In this document: positions 3,302 through 38,033 of the stretch, in pieces
Layout of the letters: every line of letters begins with the position of its first letter
Position numbering within the stretch: position 1 is the first letter of the stretch
DNA from: an uncultured Candidatus Melainabacteria bacterium
GTDB taxonomy: Bacteria > Cyanobacteriota > Vampirovibrionia > Gastranaerophilales > Gastranaerophilaceae
DNA: 45,493 bases
Assembly: GCA_949841365.1 (NCBI GenBank)
Contig: CATKZI010000008.1
Span: 1-45,493, forward strand
Reading direction: 5' to 3'
Notes under the pieces: generated by a model
Told to the model about the DNA's origin: nothing
The model's input: the letters and a program-made list of their open reading frames with translations, nothing else
The model's database searches: none
Program-made: the position numbers and the translations under genes

Positions 3302-4405
3302 ATGGAAGCAATTTCAGAAAAATCTAAGCGCAGTTCAAATATCGAATTATTAAGAATAATTGCAATGTATATAATCGTATTGCATCATTGTACTGTACAT
3401 GGTGTATTTTCTTATTGGCACAATAATACTTCGCTTGTTCAACATATAAATAATTTTTTGTGCACTTTTCTTGCATCAGGTGGAAAAATCGGTGTGACTA
3501 TTTTTGTTTTGATTTCAGGATATTTTCTATGTATGCAAGATTTTAAACTCACAAGATTTTTTAAGGTATATTTAAATACTTTATTTTATTCAATACTATT
3601 TTTGATGTTAAGTTTGCTTATCGGAACTCATCATATCGGGTGGGAGGCACTTAAGGCTTCTTTTTTGCCATTCACTTGTAAGGCATACTGGTTTATTTCA
3701 GCATATTTGCTTTTGTATATTTTTTCGCCGCTGCTTAATACTATATTAAAGCACATTAAGCCAGGAAAGATTAAATTATATTTGATTTTAGCTTCTGTAT
3801 TTTGGATATTTTTACCGTTGATAACAAATATTAAATTATTTTATTCGATACTATTGTACTTTTTTTATCTGTATATTTTGGGCGGTGCAATTAGATTTGG
3901 ATATATTAATCTAAAGCATAAGTATTTTAAATATATTACTTTGGCTGCAGTGATTTATTTAATAGTTAATATTATCTTGTATCTTAATCATGATTATGTG
4001 AATTTGTGGAAATGCTTTAAATATATGGAATTAGACACTATTTATACCTTAGCTGTTTCATTGTGGATATTTAACTGCTTTTTAAACCTTGATTTAAAAC
4101 ACAATAAATTTATAAACTATATTTCTGCTTCTACATTTGGAGTCTATTTAATCCATGAAAATAACTTTGTACGTCCTTATTTGTGGCATAAACTACTGCA
4201 TATTCATACAATGATGAATGATAAATTATTTTGTATAGAAGTTATAGTTATTTCAATTTTTGTATTTGTAGGCTGTGTTGCTTTTGATAAAATATTTTCC
4301 AAATTTACAACACCATTAATTACTAAAATAATTGATTATATTAATTCTAAAAAAAAGCTCCCCTTATATAATGAGGAGCAAATACTGAGCAATCAGAAGA
4401 GTTGA
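3302..4405 (+). CDS. Acyltransferase family 3 membrane protein
   Basis: This 367-aa integral membrane protein has about ten hydrophobic segments. It opens with the hallmark of acyltransferase family 3 (OafA/NodX-like), NIELLRIIAMYIIVLHH, containing the R and the H that matter for O-acyl transfer from acyl-CoA to sugars. The likely role is O-acetylation of a surface polysaccharide. A TATGAT -10-like box lies 12 nt before the ATG and there is no clear ribosome site. The gene is divergent from the PilZ operon. Its 3' end overlaps an inverted repeat that reads as a terminator for the opposite strand. A second, bidirectional terminator follows downstream. Confidence 0.85.
   Translation: MEAISEKSKRSSNIELLRIIAMYIIVLHHCTVHGVFSYWHNNTSLVQHINNFLCTFLASGGKIGVTIFVLISGYFLCMQDFKLTRFFKVYLNTLFYSILFLMLSLLIGTHHIGWEALKASFLPFTCKAYWFISAYLLLYIFSPLLNTILKHIKPGKIKLYLILASVFWIFLPLITNIKLFYSILLYFFYLYILGGAIRFGYINLKHKYFKYITLAAVIYLIVNIILYLNHDYVNLWKCFKYMELDTIYTLAVSLWIFNCFLNLDLKHNKFINYISASTFGVYLIHENNFVRPYLWHKLLHIHTMMNDKLFCIEVIVISIFVFVGCVAFDKIFSKFTTPLITKIIDYINSKKKLPLYNEEQILSNQKS
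4349..4378 (-). terminator. Minus-strand terminator inside the acyltransferase 3' end
   Basis: Read on the minus strand, GCTCC and GGAGC arms are separated by an AT loop and followed by a run of eight T. It could stop transcription arriving from secY, although it lies within the coding end of the convergent acyltransferase gene. Confidence 0.6.
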
Positions 4406-13683: not shown

Positions 13684-14929
13684 TATATTTAGCGACACCT
13701 TCTCCCATTGAAAAACAGCTTGCCTGAACACGTAATGCACCCTGTGCCATAAAATCGGCAGACAAACAGCGTCCTGCGACAAACAAGTTTTTGATATCAG
13801 CTGACATTAAGCTTTCAATCGGTAATTGATAATCCTGAACCTTATGTAACGTTGATTTATTTTTATCTTTTGAATGAACGTCAACGGGATAATTTGAAAT
13901 AACTACCGGATTTTCAAACTTTTTACCTGATTTTAAATCTTCAATTGTATAAACATATCTACCTTTAATTCGGTTTGAAACCCTTACCCCAAGCATATCT
14001 GCGATGTTTGATATATAAGCATTTTCAAACCCCGGAAAATAGATTTTACAAAAGTTTGACAGCCGTAAAATACTTTCTCTTGCTAGCCTTAAAGTTGTTG
14101 AGTAGTCATTATTTTCAACTATTCTCGGACAATTAAATGCAATACTGTCAGGCATTCCTGCAACGGTAAACACCTGAAAATAGTTTCTGTCAGTGTCTTT
14201 TAATACTCCTTTCTCTACTGCATCCTCAAATAAAGGCGCTAAAGCCCACTTTTTGCCTGTATCCCACGTATAAGCAGTAGAAAGATGAGTAACACCGTCA
14301 ATATTTTCGATAGTAGTAATATCTCTATCAGTATCAAAGTCCTTTAACCAACTTGCAAATTTATCAATATTAATTCCACTCATAATAAAACGCAAACTTG
14401 TCGGTTGAAGTTCATGATTTTCCAAAAATTCACAATTACAAATTTTTCCGATTTCACAATTTCCTGTCGCATCAATTATATATCTCGCTCCGATATTTAC
14501 CAATAATGCATTTTGTAACTTGTCGATATATTCAGATAATATTTTTTGTTTTATAATAACTTCTTTAATTGACTTATCTTCTTGTATTACACCCTGTATC
14601 TCTGCTCCAAAAAGCACTTCTACTCCTGCTTTTCCCATTAGTCTGTCTAAAGCAATTTTTGCAAGTTCGGGATTGAACCATCCACGGTTATTTTGATAAG
14701 TCACTTGCCCTCCCATTGTCTGCAATTCTGCAATTAGTGCATCGTAAAACTCAGTGTTTACCTGATTATCACCTGATTTCATAACGGGAATGACAAGCCC
14801 AGAGGTAATTGTACCCCCAAGATGTATGTTTTTTTCTATTAAAAGCGTTTTTAATCCGAGTTTTCCAGCTGTATAAGCGGCTGCACAGCCCGCAGCTCCG
14901 CCGCCTGCAACTACTACATCATATTCCAT
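13646..14929 (-). CDS. FAD-dependent oxidoreductase
   Basis: A 427-aa flavoprotein. The N-terminus has the dinucleotide-binding fingerprint VVVAGGGAAGCAAAY with a following acidic LLIEK strand. Other signs are GGTITSG, IDATGNCEIG and the C-terminal LFVAGRCLSADFMAQGALR, which fit the FAD_oxidored-type family; the substrate is unknown. It is not the DAO-type FAD domain of MnmC. AGGAG lies 6 nt before the ATG. The start overlaps the mnmD stop by 11 bp, so the two were transcribed together before the phage split mnmD. In the present arrangement its normal upstream transcript is cut by the prophage. Confidence 0.88.
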   Translation of the reverse strand: MEYDVVVAGGGAAGCAAAYTAGKLGLKTLLIEKNIHLGGTITSGLVIPVMKSGDNQVNTEFYDALIAELQTMGGQVTYQNNRGWFNPELAKIALDRLMGKAGVEVLFGAEIQGVIQEDKSIKEVIIKQKILSEYIDKLQNALLVNIGARYIIDATGNCEIGKICNCEFLENHELQPTSLRFIMSGINIDKFASWLKDFDTDRDITTIENIDGVTHLSTAYTWDTGKKWALAPLFEDAVEKGVLKDTDRNYFQVFTVAGMPDSIAFNCPRIVENNDYSTTLRLARESILRLSNFCKIYFPGFENAYISNIADMLGVRVSNRIKGRYVYTIEDLKSGKKFENPVVISNYPVDVHSKDKNKSTLHKVQDYQLPIESLMSADIKNLFVAGRCLSADFMAQGALRVQASCFSMGEGVAKYISEEVFSNNHFH

Positions 14930-15458
14930 TGCTTCTCCTGTATTGTTTTATATATTTTGAACTTGATATTAAATTAGAATTTTCGACTTCAATTTTATGA
15001 GACGCTATAATCGCCTCATTATTAAGCGTTAAATTTTCATCACGATAAAATATACCTGCCTTTGTTTTCATAAGCCCTAAATCGTATTCTGAGAGTTCAT
15101 GTTTTATAAGTGTTTTATTTTTGACAGCAATTGTGCCTGTAAATTTTTTAGCGCTTTCTGAATATATTTTTCCGACGAAAAATCCTGCATTCTGAAAAGC
15201 ATTTCTAACCTGTGCTGAATTTGAGTAGGTTAAAATCATTCCATCATCTTCCAAGTGCTCATAAAGCAGTTTGAAAAAATCAATTGTCCATAAGCAGGGG
15301 CATTTTACCGGTGTAAAAGCATCCAAAAATACATAATTATATATGTTATTATCATTTTTTAGAGCAGTCCTTGCATCCTCTATGCTGAGCTTAAAATCAA
15401 AATCAAGCAATTTAAGGGTATTAGATGCATTTTTATAACATGTCGACAGGTGGTGATA
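14919..15458 (-). pseudogene. mnmD: mnmD-like tRNA methyltransferase, 3' fragment (left of prophage)
   Basis: The C-terminal 179 codons of a MnmD/DUF752-type methyltransferase, which in the classic pathway converts nm5(s2)U34 to mnm5(s2)U34 of tRNA. The catalytic core motif VFLDAFTP, then CLWTIDFFKLL and TYSNSAQVRNAFQNAGFFVGK, are diagnostic. There is no start codon of its own: the frame continues open into the prophage antisense to VP5, which is probably chance. Upstream codons FLHNIYY are encoded by the 21-bp att repeat. The same codons end the 5' fragment at 20983-21630, so excision rebuilds one continuous 395-aa protein. Confidence 0.88.
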
Positions 15459-15476
15459 ATAGATATTATGTAAGAA
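15449..15476 (+). other. attL: dif-like Xer site
   Basis: An 11-6-11 arrangement: GGTGGTGATAA, TAGATA, TTATGTAAGAA. By my count it matches the E. coli dif site at 20 of 28 positions, including GGTG, ATAA and TTATGT. The left arm is host DNA; the right arm is shared with attR. The last bases (AAGAAGGAG) also form the ribosome site of VP5. Confidence 0.8.
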
Positions 15477-15477
15477 G
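15457..15477 (+). repeat. Prophage direct repeat, left copy
   Basis: The left copy of the 21-bp repeat that bounds the prophage, identical to 20981-21001. Left of it is GGTGGTGA (host); right of it is GAGAAAAAAATG (phage). Confidence 0.92.
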
Positions 15478-15486
15478 GAGAAAAAA

Positions 15487-15834
15487 ATGTTATTTAGTAT
15501 TCTAGACACCAAGACAAAAATGTTTGGCCCTTTATTTGAAGCTGAGACTGTTGAAGGAGCTCGACGTGTTATTTTCCAAACTTTGTTACGTGATGATACT
15601 TCAAATTTAAGTCTTTTTCCCGGTGATTTTACTTTATGTTCTCTTGGAGATTTCTCGCATGACACTGGTTTGTTAACTCCTTCAATTTTGATAACTGAAT
15701 GTGTTATATCAGAAATTTCTGATGAGGTCAAAAAATATATAGAACTTAAACGTTCTGAATTTATGAAAGGAGATGTTAAAAATGACGATATCGTCGAAAC
15801 TTCAAGTGATATTGAAAGTTCTGTCTGTGATTGA
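15487..15834 (+). CDS. Microvirus nonstructural protein VP5
   Basis: A 115-aa protein of the gokushovirus VP5 (ORF5) family. It begins LFSILDTKTKMFGPLFEAETVEGARRVIFQTLLRD, then FPGDFTLCSLGDFSHDTG, both recognisable family blocks. The function is poorly known; it has been proposed to bind DNA or regulate ssDNA production. AAGAAGGAG lies 6 nt before the ATG, and this ribosome site overlaps the end of the att repeat. In the circular phage the gene lies directly downstream of VP4; in the lysogen it is cut off from that upstream sequence. Confidence 0.85.
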   Translation: MLFSILDTKTKMFGPLFEAETVEGARRVIFQTLLRDDTSNLSLFPGDFTLCSLGDFSHDTGLLTPSILITECVISEISDEVKKYIELKRSEFMKGDVKNDDIVETSSDIESSVCD

Positions 15835-15892
15835 ACGTACGGTTGAATTTATTGTTAATTTGTTAGGTAAAGATGAAGTACAAAACACTTAG
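15782..15892 (+). CDS. Small phage protein (36 aa) overlapping the VP5 end
   Basis: MTISSKLQVILKVLSVIERTVEF and so on, ending TAG. A strong AAAGGAG lies 9 nt before the ATG, inside the VP5 3' end, and the frame overlaps VP5 by 53 nt in another frame. The peptide is an amphipathic or hydrophobic helix of about 25 residues with a charged C-terminus. No family is recognised; small overlapping genes in this position occur in microviruses. Confidence 0.6.
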   Translation: MTISSKLQVILKVLSVIERTVEFIVNLLGKDEVQNT

Positions 15893-15926
15893 TTCCAATT
15901 TAAAGTCTCTTATACTTTTAAGTCTT

Positions 15927-15943
15927 GAGGGTTTTTCGCCCTC
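15927..15943 (+). terminator. Hairpin between VP5 region and VP3, possible terminator
   Basis: GAGGG and CCCTC arms enclose a 7-nt loop and are followed by a T-rich stretch broken by single C/G residues. It may be a weak terminator or an mRNA-stabilising hairpin in the phage transcript. Confidence 0.45.
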
Positions 15944-16026
15944 GGCTTTTCTTTGTCTTTTTCGTTGGTTGTTTGATTTGTATCCCTTTAACTTAAAATT
16001 TTTGTTAAAAATGAAAGGAAAAATTG

Positions 16027-16527
16027 ATGAAATTCAAAACACCTTATCAAGAACTTCCTAGATGTTCTTTAACTTTTGAGAAGTGTAGTTTGACTGAACA
16101 GGACCATAAGGATGAATGTGATATTGGCAAAATTATTGCAAGTTATGTTCGTACTGGTCAATTGCCGCCTCAATCTCAGCCTTCTTATATTGATTGTACA
16201 GATGTCCAGGATTATGAAACTGCTCAAATGCTTATTGCTGAAGTTAATTCTCAATTTAATTCTCTCCCTGCTGTTGATAGGGAGAGGTTCGTTAATGTTA
16301 AGAATTATCTTAATTTTGTTGCAAATCCCGAAAATCTTAGAGAGTGTTATGAGAAAAATTATATTAATCGTGATACAGTAGATATCTCTAAAGTATATCC
16401 TGAAAGATATCAAGTTTCGGAAGTCAAAAATCCAACGCCAGGTGTCGGTTCGCCAGACGTAAGCGCGCCTGGAACGCTGGCGTCGTCTGTCGAACCTTCT
16501 GCGCCTGTTACACAGGTAGCAGACTAA
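16027..16527 (+). CDS. Microvirus internal scaffolding protein VP3
   Basis: A 166-aa scaffolding protein needed for procapsid assembly and absent from the mature virion. The block SLTEQDHKDECDIGKIIASYVRTG is the standard gokushovirus VP3 signature. The C-terminal 30 residues are Pro/Ser/Ala/Val-rich and encoded by an unusually GC-rich stretch (about 16435-16510) for this AT-rich element. The ATG at 16027 is chosen over the TTG one codon earlier; AAAGGAAA lies before it. A strong hairpin starts immediately after the stop. Confidence 0.88.
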   Translation: MKFKTPYQELPRCSLTFEKCSLTEQDHKDECDIGKIIASYVRTGQLPPQSQPSYIDCTDVQDYETAQMLIAEVNSQFNSLPAVDRERFVNVKNYLNFVANPENLRECYEKNYINRDTVDISKVYPERYQVSEVKNPTPGVGSPDVSAPGTLASSVEPSAPVTQVAD

Positions 16528-16569
16528 AGTTCTCACAAATAGGTTAACTTGTTCCTATTTGTGAGAACT
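16528..16569 (+). other. Perfect 16-bp hairpin in the VP3-VP1 gap
   Basis: AGTTCTCACAAATAGG (16528-16543) and its exact complement (16554-16569) enclose a 10-nt loop, TTAACTTGTT. No T-tract follows, so it is not a standard terminator. In ssDNA form it would be a stable stem. Confidence 0.8.
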
Positions 16570-16570
16570 G

Positions 16571-16584
16571 ACACCATAAGGTGT
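16571..16584 (+). other. Second small hairpin in VP3-VP1 gap
   Basis: ACACC-ATAA-GGTGT, directly after the 16-bp hairpin. A third stem, CTCGC-GTA-GCGAG, lies at 16648-16660 just before the VP1 ribosome site. Confidence 0.6.
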
Positions 16585-16692
16585 AGCAAGGGTTTGAAGG
16601 CAATTTTTGACTTCATACCCCCTAAAAAACGATTTACTTGAAATTCCCTCGCGTAGCGAGTTTGAATACAAATTTTATGGAGATAAAAATTT

Positions 16693-18369
16693 ATGGCTTA
16701 TATGGCAAAACCTATCGGTGGACAAACTCATAGTTTTCAAACATATCCTACTACCCAGATTTCTCGTAGTAGGTTTGACCGTTCTCATAGTCGTTATACT
16801 ACAATGCAAACTGATTATATTTATCCTATTTGGTTTGATGAAGCGCTTCCTGGTGATACTCTTGAAGTTTCTATGAGTGCTTTCTGTCGTTTAACTACTC
16901 AATTAGTACCATTTATGGATAACGTTTATATGGATGTTCATTTTTGGAAAGTTCCTTATAGACTTGTTTGGGATCATTGGGTTAACTTTCAAGGTGAAGA
17001 AGAAACCCCCGGTGTATTTCCTGATTATTTAACACCTGTTTTGAAAGCTCCTGCTTCTGGTGTTGAATTTGGCAGTATTTTTGATTATTTTCGTGTTCCA
17101 CCAAAAGTTGGTAATCTTGTTTTTAATGCTTTTAATTTTCGTGCTTATAATTTGGTTTATAATGAGTGGTATCGTGATGAGAATCTTATTGAACGTGTAG
17201 AGGTTGAAAAAGGTGATACCACTGAAAATGAAATTGATAATTATACTTTGTTGAAACGTGGTAAACGTAAAGATTACTTTACTTCTGCTTTACCTTGGCC
17301 TCAAAAAGGTCCTGCAGTTGATATTCCTTTGGGTGTAACTGCTCCTGTTGTTGGTAATGGTAATGCTTTAGGACTTGATTTTGGTTCTGGTACTACTTTA
17401 TATCCCGCTTCTTATAATGGTTATGGTAATGCTCATGTTATTACCGGTTACAAATATTCAGGTACCAGTGCACCTGCTGTTGGTTCTGGAACTACAGGTA
17501 ATTGGGCTGATACGCCAACTAACAAATATATTGGAATCTCATCTAATCCTTCTACTTCTGGATTAATTGCTGATTTAACTAGTGCAACTGCAGCAACAAT
17601 TAATACACTTCGCCAGGCTTTTGCATTACAACGTATGTATGAGATTGATGCAAGAGGTGGTACTCGATATATTGAGATGATACTTGCTCATTTTGGTGTT
17701 CAATCTCCTGATGCACGTTTACAACGTCCTGAATTTCTTGGTGGTGGTACTTTTAATTTACACCTTAATGTAGTTCCTCAAACATCATCATCAGATAGTG
17801 CATCACCTCAAGGTAATTTGGCTTCTTATGGTGTTATCAATGGTCGTACTAAGAAAATTGTAACATCTTTTACAGAGCATTGTTTAGTTTTTGCTGTTGC
17901 TTCTATTAGAGCAGATTTAACTTATCAACAAGGTTTGCCAAGACAATATTCAAGACGTGCAAGAAATGATTTTTATTTGCCTTCTCTTGCTAATTTAGGT
18001 GAACAGGCTATTCTTAATAAAGAGATATTCGCACAAGGAACTGATTCAGATGATGAAGTTTTTGGATACCAGGAACGTTGGGCAGAGTATCGCTATAAAC
18101 AAAATGAAATAACTGGTTTTATGCGTTCTGATGCTGTTAATTCTCAAGGTAATAATGTCTCTTTAGATTATTGGCATTTAGCACAAGATTTTGAAAATTT
18201 ACCTAAATTGAATGCGGAATTCATTAATGAGTCTGTTCCAATTAATAGAGTTTTGGCTCTTAATAGTGCAGAGGATACTCCACCATTTATTTGTAATTTT
18301 TATTTCAATGAATATTGGACACGTCCAATGCCTGTTTATTCAATTCCAAGTATGAAAGGACACTTTTAA
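16693..18369 (+). CDS. Microvirus major capsid protein VP1
   Basis: The major capsid protein (558 aa, Phage_F superfamily) forms the T=1 shell. Recognisable blocks are FDRSHSRYTTMQTDYIYPI near residue 35, DVHFWKVPYRLVWDHWVNF and SALPWPQKGP. After these come a Gly/Ser/Thr-rich hypervariable loop (about 210-290, the site of gokushovirus surface protrusions), DARGGTRYIE, PDARLQRPEFLGGG and the RPMPVYSIPSM end. The length is as expected for gokushoviruses. GGAGA lies 9 nt before the ATG. The stop overlaps the VP2 start by one base. Confidence 0.96.
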   Translation: MAYMAKPIGGQTHSFQTYPTTQISRSRFDRSHSRYTTMQTDYIYPIWFDEALPGDTLEVSMSAFCRLTTQLVPFMDNVYMDVHFWKVPYRLVWDHWVNFQGEEETPGVFPDYLTPVLKAPASGVEFGSIFDYFRVPPKVGNLVFNAFNFRAYNLVYNEWYRDENLIERVEVEKGDTTENEIDNYTLLKRGKRKDYFTSALPWPQKGPAVDIPLGVTAPVVGNGNALGLDFGSGTTLYPASYNGYGNAHVITGYKYSGTSAPAVGSGTTGNWADTPTNKYIGISSNPSTSGLIADLTSATAATINTLRQAFALQRMYEIDARGGTRYIEMILAHFGVQSPDARLQRPEFLGGGTFNLHLNVVPQTSSSDSASPQGNLASYGVINGRTKKIVTSFTEHCLVFAVASIRADLTYQQGLPRQYSRRARNDFYLPSLANLGEQAILNKEIFAQGTDSDDEVFGYQERWAEYRYKQNEITGFMRSDAVNSQGNNVSLDYWHLAQDFENLPKLNAEFINESVPINRVLALNSAEDTPPFICNFYFNEYWTRPMPVYSIPSMKGHF

Positions 18370-19112
18370 TGGTTTTTGGTGCTATGCTCGGTAGTGCTGC
18401 TTTAGGTGGAATTTCTGGAATGATTTCTGCTCAACAGCAGTATAAATATCAAAAAAGACTCCAACAGAATGCATATGATTTAACTCAACGTGGATATCGT
18501 GAGCAATATGGTAATATGCGTACTGGTTTGGAGAATGCTGGTTATAACCCCCTTCTTGCAGTCAACGGTGGAATGAATGGAGCCACTTTTCAATCTGGCT
18601 CTGCCACCGGTGCAAGTTATGATGGTTCTGGTTTTGCTAATGCTATTACTAATGCTAAGCAGCAGAAGTCTCAACAGGCTTTGAATGATGCTTCTATTAA
18701 ACAGCTTGAAAGTCAAGTTGGTGTAAATAATGCCGAAGCTTCTTACAAGGAAGGTTTGCTTCAATCAGAGATAATTAAACAGTCTGGTTATGATTTGGAT
18801 AATCAGATAAAAGATTTGGAACGTCAGAAGTCTCAAAAAGAGTTAAGCATTTATGATGAGAAGCTTCTCTCTGAGTTAAGGAATATACAGCAAGATACAG
18901 AGCTTAAAAAAGCTTATCAGTATCAGGCTGTAGTAAATGCTCAGTCAGGACGTATTCAGGCTGATGCTGCAGCTACTAATGCTAAAACTAATCAGTACAA
19001 TGCTGGCACTTCAAGACTTCGTCAAGAGGATGATAGGCATTCCAATGCTTGGAAGTCATTTACTAATAGCTTAAAGGATATGCGTTATGGTGGTTGGCAT
19101 CGAAGTTATTAA
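18369..19112 (+). CDS. Microvirus DNA pilot protein VP2
   Basis: A 247-aa minor capsid or pilot protein, thought to guide ssDNA into the host. It has an N-terminal Gly/Ala-rich membrane-like segment (GAMLGSAALGGISGMI) and a Gln-rich helix. The NMRTGLENAGYNPLLAVNGG motif is diagnostic of gokushovirus VP2. A long Gln/Lys/Asp-rich coiled-coil C-terminus follows (about 100-247). The ATG at 18369 shares its A with the VP1 stop (TAATG); a longer frame into VP1 is not used. Confidence 0.93.
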   Translation: MVFGAMLGSAALGGISGMISAQQQYKYQKRLQQNAYDLTQRGYREQYGNMRTGLENAGYNPLLAVNGGMNGATFQSGSATGASYDGSGFANAITNAKQQKSQQALNDASIKQLESQVGVNNAEASYKEGLLQSEIIKQSGYDLDNQIKDLERQKSQKELSIYDEKLLSELRNIQQDTELKKAYQYQAVVNAQSGRIQADAAATNAKTNQYNAGTSRLRQEDDRHSNAWKSFTNSLKDMRYGGWHRSY

Positions 19113-19249
19113 TCTAATGAAATGCTCATAATAAATAAAATTGTTATAAGTATTGGTACTATTACGAATATCCATATTAGTAAAAATCTTATAGTTCTAA
19201 ATAATTTATCTTTTTCGTTCATTACTTAATCATAAAGGAGAAAAATAAT
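19113..19249. other. VP2-M15 gap with short open frames on both strands
   Basis: The minus strand holds a 37-aa frame (19109-19222, MNEKDKLFRTIRFLL and so on): charged N-terminus, then about 22 hydrophobic residues with Trp and Pro, a typical single-span membrane peptide. The plus strand holds a 35-aa frame (19122-19229), also hydrophobic. Neither has a ribosome site. One could be a lysis peptide, but chance in a T-rich genome is as likely. Confidence 0.3.
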
Positions 19250-19666
19250 ATGTCAAATAATTTAAATTTCACAATGGATGAATTTTTTCACAGTGATAGT
19301 GCAGGATTATTGCGCCTAGAGAATTATCCGTCTACTATGACCGAGTTAAAAAACGTTTGTGATAACTTAATGCGCTTAACAATTCTTACACTTCAACCTT
19401 TGCGTGATGCTGTAGGTAAACCGGTTCAAGTGTTGAGTGGTTTTCGTTGTCCTAAAGTTAATGAGTATGTTGGTGGAGTTAAAACCTCTCAGCACTTAAC
19501 CGGAAATGCTGTAGATATTCGTGTTGATAGGTGTACACCCGAGTATTTGGCTAATATTGTTAATAAGTTAAATTTACCTTATGACCAGATGATATGTGAA
19601 AACGGTTGGCTGCATATAAGTCTTGTAAAAGGTCGAAACCGTAGGCAATTTATAGAAAGGATGTAA
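19250..19666 (+). CDS. Phage M15-type peptidase (murein D-Ala-D-Ala peptidase-like)
   Basis: A 138-aa member of the peptidase M15 family, which cleaves peptidoglycan cross-links. The zinc site is intact: His82 and Asp89 in SQHLTGNAVDI, and His122 in GWLHISL; LSGFRCPKVN precedes them. The protein is a single catalytic domain with no signal peptide. It could help peptidoglycan crossing during entry or serve in lysis, since no holin is evident. A clear AAAGGAG lies before the ATG. It is followed 1 nt later by the small basic gene. Confidence 0.9.
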   Translation: MSNNLNFTMDEFFHSDSAGLLRLENYPSTMTELKNVCDNLMRLTILTLQPLRDAVGKPVQVLSGFRCPKVNEYVGGVKTSQHLTGNAVDIRVDRCTPEYLANIVNKLNLPYDQMICENGWLHISLVKGRNRRQFIERM

Positions 19667-19667
19667 T

Positions 19668-19781
19668 ATGAAACGTAAAAATATTTCTCAACGTCAAAGT
19701 AAAAAATTGTTTCGTCGTTCTGGCGCTATGATGAATTCAAAAAATTTGCCACGTATTTCTCGTGGTGGTATTAGATTTTAA
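19668..19781 (+). CDS. Small basic DNA-binding protein (VP8/J-like)
   Basis: A 37-aa, strongly basic peptide: MKRKNISQRQSKKLFRR, ending PRISRGGIRF. Arg/Lys-rich peptides of this size with a Gly-Gly-Ile-Arg end are typical of microvirus DNA-packaging proteins (J / VP8), which neutralise ssDNA inside the capsid. The start is 1 nt after the M15 stop, with GAAAGG upstream. Confidence 0.78.
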   Translation: MKRKNISQRQSKKLFRRSGAMMNSKNLPRISRGGIRF

Positions 19782-19809
19782 ATTCTAAGCCTTTAGTTAT
19801 CTTATTTAT

Positions 19810-19832
19810 AGCCCTTTTTTAGGGCTTTTTTT
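19810..19832 (+). terminator. Phage Rho-independent terminator
   Basis: AGCCCT-TTTTT-AGGGCT followed by T7. It separates the structural gene block from VP4 and is the strongest terminator in the element. Confidence 0.9.
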
Positions 19833-19845
19833 ATAAGGAGATTTT

Positions 19846-20895
19846 ATGACTTGTTATAATCCAATTCATGCATGTTATAGTAAAAGTGAATATGCAAAAT
19901 CCGGTAAAAAGCGGCTTCATTTAGTTATGAATGAGGATACTAAAGATAAATATATTTTGAATGAAAGAGACTATCCACACGCTTTATATCAATACATTTA
20001 TGTTCCTTGTGGTAAATGTGTTGGTTGTCGTTCTGATAATGCAAAAATGTGGTCTCTACGTGCTCAAAATGAGTTAAAAATGCATAAGTTTAATTGTTTT
20101 ATTACATTAACTTATAATAATGAAAGTCCTACGTTTCAAAAAGATCCTTTGTGTATTGCATCACTTCGTTATAAGCATTTTCAGAACTTCATGAAACGTT
20201 TACGTAAAAGATTTCCTCGTGATGATATACGTTATTTGGTTTGTGGTGAATATGGTCCTAAAGATGGACGTGCTCATTGGCATGCTATTCTTTTTGGTTT
20301 TGATTTTCCCGATAAAGAGTTAGTTTATGTAAGTAAAGGATATAGACATTATGTTAGTAAAATACTTGAAGAATGTTGGTCAGATTATGATCGTGATACT
20401 AAAACTTATTTTAGCATTGGTTTTGTTGACCTTGCTGATGTTGATGAGGATTGTTGCAATTATGTTTCCCAATATGTTCTCAAAAAACTCCCTATTGATC
20501 AGGATAATATTATTGTTGACTATACCGATTATGGAGTTCCAATTAAGCTTGAAGGACGAGTAGAACCTATGATTAAATCTTCTCGTAATCCTGCTATTGG
20601 TTTACGTTGGTTTGAAAAGTATGGTCGTACTGCAGTTGAAAAAGGTTATATTGATGTTTCAAATAAACAGCGTACTGGTAAACGGCGTGTTAAAACTCCT
20701 TCATATTATTATTCTAAGTTTGAAGAGTTTGACCCTATTATGGCTTCGAAGTTTAAGAAGTTAAAAGAGGAAAAAATGAAAGGATATTATAAAAAACATC
20801 CTGTAGACCGTGATAAGTTGAAGCGTTGGTCAGAAGCTCATTTATTTAGAATAAATAAAGCTATTAAAAAAGCCTTGACAAAATTTATTTCATAG
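19846..20895 (+). CDS. Microvirus replication initiator VP4 (HUH endonuclease)
   Basis: A 349-aa rolling-circle replication protein that nicks the double-stranded form. Motifs are VPCGKCVGCR (residues 53-62), FITLTY (85-90, motif I), HUH as HWH at 144-146 (motif II), and NYVSQYVLKK with Tyr206 and Tyr210 (motif III, catalytic tyrosines). The C-terminus is Lys/Arg-rich. AAGGAG lies 6 nt before the ATG. Its stop overlaps by 6 bp the stop of the truncated host mnmD frame on the other strand. Confidence 0.95.
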   Translation: MTCYNPIHACYSKSEYAKSGKKRLHLVMNEDTKDKYILNERDYPHALYQYIYVPCGKCVGCRSDNAKMWSLRAQNELKMHKFNCFITLTYNNESPTFQKDPLCIASLRYKHFQNFMKRLRKRFPRDDIRYLVCGEYGPKDGRAHWHAILFGFDFPDKELVYVSKGYRHYVSKILEECWSDYDRDTKTYFSIGFVDLADVDEDCCNYVSQYVLKKLPIDQDNIIVDYTDYGVPIKLEGRVEPMIKSSRNPAIGLRWFEKYGRTAVEKGYIDVSNKQRTGKRRVKTPSYYYSKFEEFDPIMASKFKKLKEEKMKGYYKKHPVDRDKLKRWSEAHLFRINKAIKKALTKFIS

Positions 20896-20953
20896 TTTAT
20901 ACTGTTTATATAAATTTTCGAATTTATTTCGATTTTTAATTTTGTATATCGTT

Positions 20954-20965
20954 GCGACATGTCGC
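20954..20965 (+). repeat. Perfect 12-bp palindrome near attR
   Basis: GCGACATGTCGC lies 15 bp inside the prophage right end. In the circular phage it would sit upstream of VP5. It could be a regulator site or an accessory recombination site. Confidence 0.6.
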
Positions 20966-20972
20966 TTCATGA

Positions 20973-21000
20973 TATATTTGTAATAGATATTATGTAAGAA
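20973..21000 (+). other. attR: dif-like Xer site
   Basis: TATATTTGTAA (phage arm), TAGATA, TTATGTAAGAA. It shares the central 6 bp and right arm with attL. The rebuilt host site would be GGTGGTGATAA-TAGATA-TTATGTAAGAA. Confidence 0.8.
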
Positions 21001-21001
21001 G
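20981..21001 (+). repeat. Prophage direct repeat, right copy
   Basis: The second copy of the 21-bp prophage repeat, here preceded by phage TATATTTG and followed by host TAAACTAAAG. The crossover lies within it. Confidence 0.92.
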
Positions 21002-21636
21002 TAAACTAAAGCCCTTAAAGGGTTAGTTTTATATGTCTTATATTTATAAAGCTTGTATAAACCACTCATATATTTGTCAAAATATTGAGAGTATTTTTTA
21101 TCAAAAAGAAGTCTTTCGGTTTCGCTGTCAATGTCTGCAAACAGCTTTTCTCCCAGCAAAATATTAATTTCTTTTTTTAATCCAAAGTGAGAAGTAATTT
21201 TATCAGATAACATTCTTTGAATTTTTTCCTGTTCAAATGATAACTTATTATTTTTTCTCTTTTTTTTATCTGTTACAAAAAATGGAGAAAGTTGAGCCAA
21301 ATTTTTATCTGTGTCTATAGCATGTATAAAAATTTTACGCTTTTTGTTATCGCCATATAACTTGTCGATATGTTTAATATTATTGCTACCTATCGTCTCG
21401 TTATAGGCAAAATTTAAAAAACTTTTGGTGTTGTATCCGATTCCAAAACAAATATCTAAAATTTTTATTTCAGAATTTTTTTCGAAATAATTTTTTAAAT
21501 CTGCAGGCAAAATAAATTTTTCATAAGCTTCTGTTAAAGCGCCGTAAGTTGAATGATAAATATCATCGGCATCCGGAGAGAAAAGCCCTACAGAACCGTC
21601 ATTTGTAAAGTATGGATATAATTCGTACATGTGCTT

Positions 21637-21665
21637 ATTATAGAATATATTGAAATTATTGGCAA
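21637..21665 (-). promoter_or_regulatory. mnmD promoter (leaderless)
   Basis: On the minus strand, TTGCCA (21665-21660), a 17-bp spacer and TATAAT (21642-21637) are followed by 6 nt and the ATG. The -35 box overlaps that of thrB on the other strand. Confidence 0.75.
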
Positions 21666-21687
21666 ATTTGTGTGTTTCTGTTATAAT
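21659..21687 (+). promoter_or_regulatory. thrB promoter
   Basis: TTGGCA (21659-21664), a 17-bp spacer and TATAAT (21682-21687). The -35 hexamers of thrB and mnmD share 5 bp on opposite strands. Confidence 0.8.
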
Positions 21688-21706
21688 TTTGTAGAAAGTA
21701 GGAATT

Positions 21707-22651
21707 ATGAAAATAAGTGTAAAAGTGCCGGCCACAACGGCAAATATAGGCCCCGGATTTGACAGTTTAGGTATGGCTTTGCCTCTATATAATACCATAA
21801 CTATTGAAGAAACCGTATTACCGGGCACAGGAATTGAAATCAATGTATTAAATAATACTGCATCAGCAGGTGATTTTATTATGGAACATATTCCAATGGA
21901 TGAAAACAGTATTATTTACAAGGCTGTAGAACTTTTATACAACTCTATAGGTCAAAGCCCGAGTGAATTAAAAATAACTGTTCATTCTGAAATCCCTATT
22001 GCAAGAGGTTTAGGAAGCAGTGCTTCTGTTATTGTAGGCGGTTTGCTTGCTGCAAATGAACTTTTAGGGAAACCTGCTGATGAAGTAGCATTATTGTCAA
22101 TCGCAACAGAAGTTGAAGGACACCCTGACAATGTTACTCCAGCAATTGTAGGCGGTTTAGTATTATCTTCGCAAGAAGATGATGGTAGAATAATTTATAC
22201 TAAACTTGATTGGCCTGATGAGTGGGATATTACGGTATGCGTGCCCGATTATGAATTATCAACGGATATTTCACGTTCTGTTTTACCTGCAGAAATTCCT
22301 ATGGCTGATGCTGTATTTAACGCTAAACGTATGGGGATGTTTGTTCAAGCAGTTAATACAAAAGATGCTGAATTAATGAAACTGGCGTTGCAGGATAGAT
22401 TACACCAGCCCTACAGAATGAAGCTTGTTCCGGGACTTGATAAAATTATCGAAAACTTAAAACATGAAGAAAATGTTTTAGGTTGTGTATTAAGCGGAGC
22501 AGGCCCTTCTATATTGATAATTTCGCAAAAAAACAATCTTGATAAGATTAAATCAATCGTTAAAGATACTTGGGAAAGTTTAAACGTAAAAGCAAATATA
22601 ATGACTTTACCTGTTGAAAAACAAGGGGCACAAATTATAACTCAAGAATAA
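21707..22651 (+). CDS. thrB: Homoserine kinase
   Basis: A 314-aa GHMP-family kinase that phosphorylates homoserine in threonine synthesis. Evidence is the N-terminal KVPATTANIGPGFDSLGMAL, the ATP-binding loop PIARGLGSSASVIVGG, and GHPDNVTPAIVGG and LSGAGPSIL near the C-terminus, all in family order and at normal length. AGTAGGAATT lies before the ATG. It is transcribed from a near-consensus promoter divergent from mnmD and ends in a strong terminator. Confidence 0.96.
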   Translation: MKISVKVPATTANIGPGFDSLGMALPLYNTITIEETVLPGTGIEINVLNNTASAGDFIMEHIPMDENSIIYKAVELLYNSIGQSPSELKITVHSEIPIARGLGSSASVIVGGLLAANELLGKPADEVALLSIATEVEGHPDNVTPAIVGGLVLSSQEDDGRIIYTKLDWPDEWDITVCVPDYELSTDISRSVLPAEIPMADAVFNAKRMGMFVQAVNTKDAELMKLALQDRLHQPYRMKLVPGLDKIIENLKHEENVLGCVLSGAGPSILIISQKNNLDKIKSIVKDTWESLNVKANIMTLPVEKQGAQIITQE

Positions 22652-37772: not shown

Positions 37773-38033
37773 AAGTCGTGCTCCACGGGGATTTGCAATC
37801 TCTTGACCCGAAGCTTATGCGGGGTGCAGAGCCTGTTGTGAGGGTCTGACTGATAACTTTGAAAAGTAAATTATTGTTGACATTTACCGATATGACGGCG
37901 TAAGCTGTCGAACCGTGTCAGGATGGAAACATAGCAGCACTAAGACAATCCTTGCGGGTGTTGTATTTGTAAAAAGAGATAATTTATTTGGAAATTTTGT
38001 CAGCCATATTCGATAGACAGTGGCACGGCTTTT
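37773..38033 (+). ncRNA. ffs: Signal recognition particle RNA (large, Alu-domain type)
   Basis: About 260 nt. The conserved S-domain core is clear: GTGTCAGGATGGAAACATAG then CAGCACTAAG (37916 on), with a GNRA-type loop (ATG-GAAA-CAT), followed by the symmetric loop and ATCCTTGCGGGTGTTGT. The termini GTCGTGC (37775-37781) and GCACGGC (38023-38029) pair with one wobble and close the molecule; a T-run ends it. The size and the long 5' part indicate a Bacillus-like RNA with an Alu domain rather than the 114-nt E. coli type. Confidence 0.93.

Follow-up and report, generated by a model that had tools for sequence, protein, structure and literature searches.

A CTTG motif in a hairpin loop and a TGACACC box at a set distance mark a candidate rolling-circle replication origin of gokushoviruses

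What is the function of a cluster of DNA hairpins that fills the non-coding gap between two structural genes of a small phage? The question arises in a 45,493-nt contig of an uncultured Candidatus Melainabacteria bacterium (CATKZI010000008.1, assembly GCA_949841365.1), which was analyzed over its whole length and is referred to here as the window. The hairpins lie in the gap 16528–16692, between the genes of the internal scaffolding protein VP3 (16024–16527; Pfam Chlamy_scaf, 8.4e-27; phrog_1642) and the major capsid protein VP1 (16693–18369; Phage_F, 3e-167), and the VP3 stop codon is located immediately 5' of the first hairpin. The preliminary description had assigned this gap to a compact phage genome. 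The gap is real, but the window is a bacterial contig rather than a free phage genome, and the phage is a gokushovirus-like microvirus integrated as a prophage (15457–21001, plus strand), its 5524 bp bounded by two dif-like direct repeats. These repeats (15457–15477 and 20981–21001) are identical over 21 bp and lie inside repeat D6. The prophage encodes ORF5, VP3, VP1, a pilot protein, an M15 peptidase, and an HUH replication initiator, Rep (19846–20895, plus strand; REP_ORF2-G2P, 4.9e-19; phrog_942, 1.9e-86), and it contains the Gokushovirinae gene set of a Chlamy_scaf VP3, a Phage_F VP1, ORF5, and Rep.

Several further features of the locus were recorded. The M15 peptidase gene (19250–19666), located between the pilot protein and Rep, probably acts in lysis; it is also annotated in bajarodmic viruses 769 and 28 and is absent from the annotation of 869, 880, 520, 772, and 1037. 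A small ORF between ORF5 and VP3 (15873–16061) has no family match. The prophage seemingly splits a methyltransferase-like host gene at the dif-like repeat, rather than occupying an intergenic dif site; the two parts are found on the minus strand at 14919–15731, which carries the Methyltransf_30 match, and 20890–21843. The host genome G000 has five copies of a 17-mer that differs by two bases from the att repeat core (C1:160902, C2:115808, C6:135302, C10:360, and C11:350), two of them near contig starts. An Rfam search of the window gave no match within the phage and a single one in the host, the bacterial large SRP RNA at 37776–38028.

The gap contains four hairpins, all given on the plus strand. 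H1 (16528–16569) has a perfect 16-bp stem (arms 16528–16543 and 16554–16569) and the 10-nt loop TTAACTTGTT; its arm is that of the longest perfect hairpin in the window, while 20 mononucleotide shuffles gave longest arms of 9–12 bp. It is followed by H2 (ACACC-ATAA-GGTGT; 16571–16584), H3 (GGGT.TGAAG.CAA-TTT-TTG.CTTCA.ACCC; 16590–16620), and H4 (CTCGC-GTA-GCGAG; 16648–16660), which has a GNA triloop. The preliminary description had reported H1, H2, and H4, and all three are exact in sequence and position; H2 and H4 also fold, and no run of five or more T follows any of the three, as it had likewise claimed. Its count of three was incomplete, since H3, between its second and third hairpins, had been missed. 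Folding of the 191-nt stretch gave z = −4.0 with RNA and z = −6.4 with DNA parameters, and none of 200 dinucleotide shuffles folded as well in either case. Two short elements are associated with H1: a CTTG in its loop (16548–16551), which corresponds to CTTG^A at the phiX174 rep_origin 4306 and marks a candidate Rep nick between 16551 and 16552, and a TGACACC box (16569–16575) 17 nt after CTTG, which overlaps H2 and is a candidate Rep recognition site.

A blastn search of the gap against the phage collection matched 10 of 50,697 records, namely bajarodmic viruses 769, 28 (two records), 869, 880, 520, 772, and 1037 and Alces MP11 (two records). Each of these eight viruses entered the alignment once, together with the window. 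Across the nine sequences, 97.2% of H1 cells are paired, and six pairs have changed on both sides. The covariation score of the whole structure is 0.322, compared with 0.106 (sd 0.020) in shuffled alignments, none of which reached it in 500 trials, and 0.046–0.115 when the structure was slid. Folded one by one, eight sequences form H2 (it is missing in virus 520) and all nine form H3 and H4, with varying stem letters. For virus 520, folding by itself shows the outer pairs of H3 in another arrangement, yet they are present in the alignment; in viruses 772 and 1037 H4 folds as AACCC-AAA-GGGTT, where the automatic H4 row chose another, overlapping stem. The H4 loop is GTA or GAA in seven sequences and AAA in two, and its stem pairs are changed between them. 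The CTTGTT of the H1 loop is invariant in all nine, with ACTGACAC directly after it. The preliminary description had made a role of the stems depend on compensatory changes in related phages; such changes are present, all four hairpins are kept except for H2 in one sequence, and the stems are therefore conserved among these relatives.

Because the CTTG of the H1 loop matches the annotated nick motif of phiX174, its generality was surveyed. In 80 IMG/VR loci selected by VP1 similarity (the best 80 of 189), 60 have a perfect hairpin (arm of at least 8, loop of 4–18) with CTTG in its loop, compared with 0–3 of 80 in ten dinucleotide shuffles. No other loop tetramer is as common in these loci, and the reverse complement CAAG is found in the loop in five. 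A set of 51 loci selected by Rep similarity, none of which has more than 10% of its 40-mers in common with the VP1 set, gave the same strand bias (CTTG in 36, CAAG in 4), and several exceptions have CTAG at the same place. In the 60 loci in which the hairpin (arm of at least 7) and VP3 could both be placed, the hairpin is mostly found within about 250 nt past the matched VP3 end, and the next gene is Rep in 43, VP1 in 11, VP3 in 4, and VP2 in 2. CTTGTT is also found in a hairpin loop of two cultured gokushoviruses: in phiMH2K this hairpin is longer than any other, and in SpV4 it shares the greatest length (10 bp) with one more. In two divergent microviruses, phiCA82 (L166) and L242, no CTTG-loop hairpin was found among the four longest. 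Of 117 loci, 40 have a second small hairpin (arm of at least 5) directly after H1, while shuffled sequences gave 5 on average and random places 13; this feature is thus real in part and not general.

Prophage-like loci in two relatives of the host (same order and family; L084 and L085) have the same hairpin and TGACACC at spacing 16. In L016 (about 4100–4157), L129 (about 1995–2050), and L151 (about 610–670), a hairpin and a box-like sequence seem to form a unit on the strand opposite to VP1 and Rep; should these units be genuine rather than products of faulty assembly, these phages would package the strand antisense to their genes.

Sequence comparisons further revealed that the distance between CTTG and the box is nearly fixed. 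TGACA follows the H1-type hairpin in 60/71 and 44/46 of the loci that have H1. When no hairpin was required, 87 of 141 genomes had CT[TA]G-N-TGACA with N=16, 30 had it with N=17, and 9 with N=15, while other distances within 0–60 were found in 0–10 genomes each, bar N=1 in 27 of 141. The latter was rejected as a separate signal, as in almost every case it consists of the CTAGG that ends the stem and the box of the same origin. The window has N=17, and this is its sole CT[TA]G-TGACA site on either strand of the 45 kb.

The rule, fixed beforehand, was applied to a held-out set of 74 further loci (80 retrieved, 6 already included), with L164, L165, L166, and L241–L243 left out. On the plus strand 58 of the 74 match, 55 of them with at least six consecutive pairs, whereas on the minus strand 7 match and none has six consecutive pairs; here as in the other surveys, the counts include some near-identical loci. 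The spacings are 16 (37 loci) and 17 (21 loci), with no others. A motif confined to one strand and next to a box is thus a property of most of these genomes, and the box is the putative binding site. Jointly, 173 of 213 genomes pass, a total that includes the sets in which the rule was found. The consensus of the 173 origins reads TACTTG^ATGTAA ... (C/G)TGACACCA; CTTG is present in 161 and CTAG in 12, and the base after the nick is A in 76% and T in 24%, T being that of the window. The full pattern is missing in 16 of the 74 held-out genomes, six of these being contigs under 3.6 kb, and in 16 of the 131 earlier IMG/VR loci, and in some loci without it (L169, L170, L172, and L178) the hairpin is retained while the box has changed. 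In phiMH2K and SpV4 only a degenerate box is found at N=16 (TCACAGA and TGACGAC, respectively), which does not match the rule.

A rolling-circle double-strand origin is served by an HUH initiator, and the prophage Rep is of this type: its motifs AHWHA (with HWH) and NYVSQY (with YVSQY) correspond to LHFHA and FYVAKY of the phiX174 A protein. Gokushovirus and phiX174 Reps were grouped together in a published analysis, as far as the consulted part of that paper extends (PMC6668415). A search of PDB sequences with Rep gave nothing at E ≤ 1. The origin sequence tracks Rep better than VP1, even though it usually adjoins VP3: in 123 genomes the partial Mantel correlation of origin distance is 0.31 with Rep given VP1 (p 0.001) and 0.16 with VP1 given Rep (p 0.004), and in 100 genomes compared for Rep and VP3 it is 0.31 (p 0.002) and 0.14 (p 0.008), respectively, although such tests may mislead where lineages have a common history.

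We conclude that H1 together with the TGACACC box is very probably the double-strand (viral-strand) rolling-circle origin of this gokushovirus. From the sequence features we infer the following course of events. Rep would bind the TGACACC box and the adjoining stem, and the inverted repeat would be extruded in the supercoiled replicative form or in single-stranded DNA, leaving CTTG unpaired in the loop, 15–17 nt from the box. One tyrosine of the YxxxY pair would then cut after CTTG, and the 3' end at the cut would prime viral-strand synthesis. When synthesis has gone once round the circle, the second tyrosine would cut and join the regenerated site.

The preliminary description had considered that the hairpins could be a complementary-strand origin or packaging signal. 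Its view that the stems matter as single-stranded DNA holds, but for H1 the CTTG loop, the coding-strand bias, and the box at fixed spacing point to a viral-strand origin nicked by Rep. It is unlikely that the element serves solely as a single-strand origin or packaging signal while Rep cuts elsewhere, for example in its own gene as in phiX174. The four non-coding hairpins do resemble the primase- or RNA polymerase-type origins of other ssDNA phages, and the GNA triloop of H4, kept in seven of nine sequences, belongs to a loop type that is unusually stable in DNA. However, this explanation does not predict a one-strand loop CTTG at a constant distance from a box that phiX174 has as well, and the full set with H2–H4 was found only in the nine closely related sequences, whereas H1 and the box are present in most gokushoviruses examined. 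The triloop itself argues weakly for H4, since GNA is only mildly in excess over its complement TNC across genomes (107 vs 75 of 943 distinct triloop hairpins in 131 genomes).

An action of the hairpins in mRNA, as a terminator, an RNA stabilizer, or a control of VP3/VP1 translation, would agree with their position directly past the VP3 stop codon and with the strong RNA fold. We nevertheless consider it very unlikely: H1–H4 have no T-run, none of them pairs a GC-rich stem with one as intrinsic terminators do, no terminator-like site was found in the gap, the next gene is far more often Rep than VP1, and the conserved CTTG at a fixed distance to TGACACC would be left unexplained. The suggestion that the hairpins tune capsid expression fits badly for the same reason, as the hairpin precedes Rep in most other genomes. 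In addition, annotated ORFs lie between H4 and VP1 in viruses 869 and 880 and in MP11, which retain H1–H4, and this argues against a VP1 leader. Least probable is that TGACACC forms part of a TTGACA-like −35 promoter element with the hairpin as its operator. TGACAC does resemble TTGACA, and phiX174 has a match at 3907 (CTAG-N17-TGACACC) upstream of a transcription start annotated at 3962. Yet among the 173 origins TGACA is preceded by C in 61% and by G in 36%, not by T, no promoter-like (sigma-70-like) site was listed in the gap, and in several genomes (e.g., L056) the start codon lies about 20 nt past the box, which leaves no room for a −10 element and a leader.

Beside the proposed Rep origin, H2–H4 may act on the displaced single strand, as a complementary-strand primer site or in packaging, a role to which we attach low confidence. 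A search of viral_contigs for the box-H2-H3 pattern returned MP11 (L003) only; two loci from genome_contigs (L102 and L103) were chance matches in which no phage protein was matched, and were dropped. More tentatively, and with somewhat less than even confidence, the whole gap can be read as a replication control region, in which H1 and the box would be the Rep origin and H2–H4 a DNA-level single-strand origin of mini-hairpins that move as one unit. H1 and the box would then be gokushovirus-wide and of common ancestry with the phiX174 origin, with a gain or loss of the hairpin at an unchanged distance from nick to box.

Few ssDNA phages are assembled as often as gokushoviruses, and the literature searched does not state where their replication starts: in the parts consulted of PMC7062461, PMC3091885, PMC3394797, PMC6668415, PMC6723397, PMC3135560, and PMC5714925, no statement of the origin location was found, and the original descriptions of Chp1, Chp2, phiCPG1, SpV4, and phiMH2K fell outside this scope. 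Hairpin-exposed rolling-circle nicks as such are already well known, while the gokushovirus location and rule appear to be new within that literature, which did not extend to older subscription papers. The rule (CTTG in a hairpin loop, 15–17 nt, TGACACC) places a candidate origin in most gokushoviruses, provides a natural start point and strand for each genome, and links the gokushovirus origin with its phiX174 counterpart. The candidate origin could be tested at once in EC6098, which the part of the source consulted presents as cultivable (PMC7062461).

Among known systems, rolling-circle plasmids with hairpin-type double-strand origins have bind and nick sites side by side and a hairpin-exposed nick, according to the consulted part of PMC5714925, as we propose for H1 and the box; they differ in sequence, Rep family, and host group, and the rigid TGACACC spacing is a trait seen in this phage group. 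Other comparisons concern the cluster as a whole. The intergenic region of filamentous phages likewise combines replication signals in a hairpin cluster within a non-coding gap, but virion and arrangement differ. G4-type complementary-strand origins consist of three neighboring hairpins in a non-coding gap, to which H2–H4 may be analogous, at a different location. The closest comparison is phiX174 (Bullavirinae), whose annotated rep_origin at 4306 reads CAACTTG^ATATTAATAACACTATAGACCACC / CAACTTG^ATATTAATAACAC. Its nick CTTG^ATATT is equivalent to CTTG^TT in the window, its Rep, protein A, has the same HUH and YxxxY motifs, and a GAC..ACC box lies about 16–17 nt 3' of the nick motif; GACCACC starts 17 nt after CTTG, so that the nick-to-box distance agrees. 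In contrast, phiX174 has its origin within gene A, with no hairpin around the nick, whereas the gokushovirus origin is non-coding, has a long hairpin, usually lies near VP3, which it directly follows in the window, and has the box TGACACC instead of AGACCACC. The conserved phiX174-type origin sequence extends over 30 bp, and the match to it is limited to the nick motif, the spacing, and part of the box.
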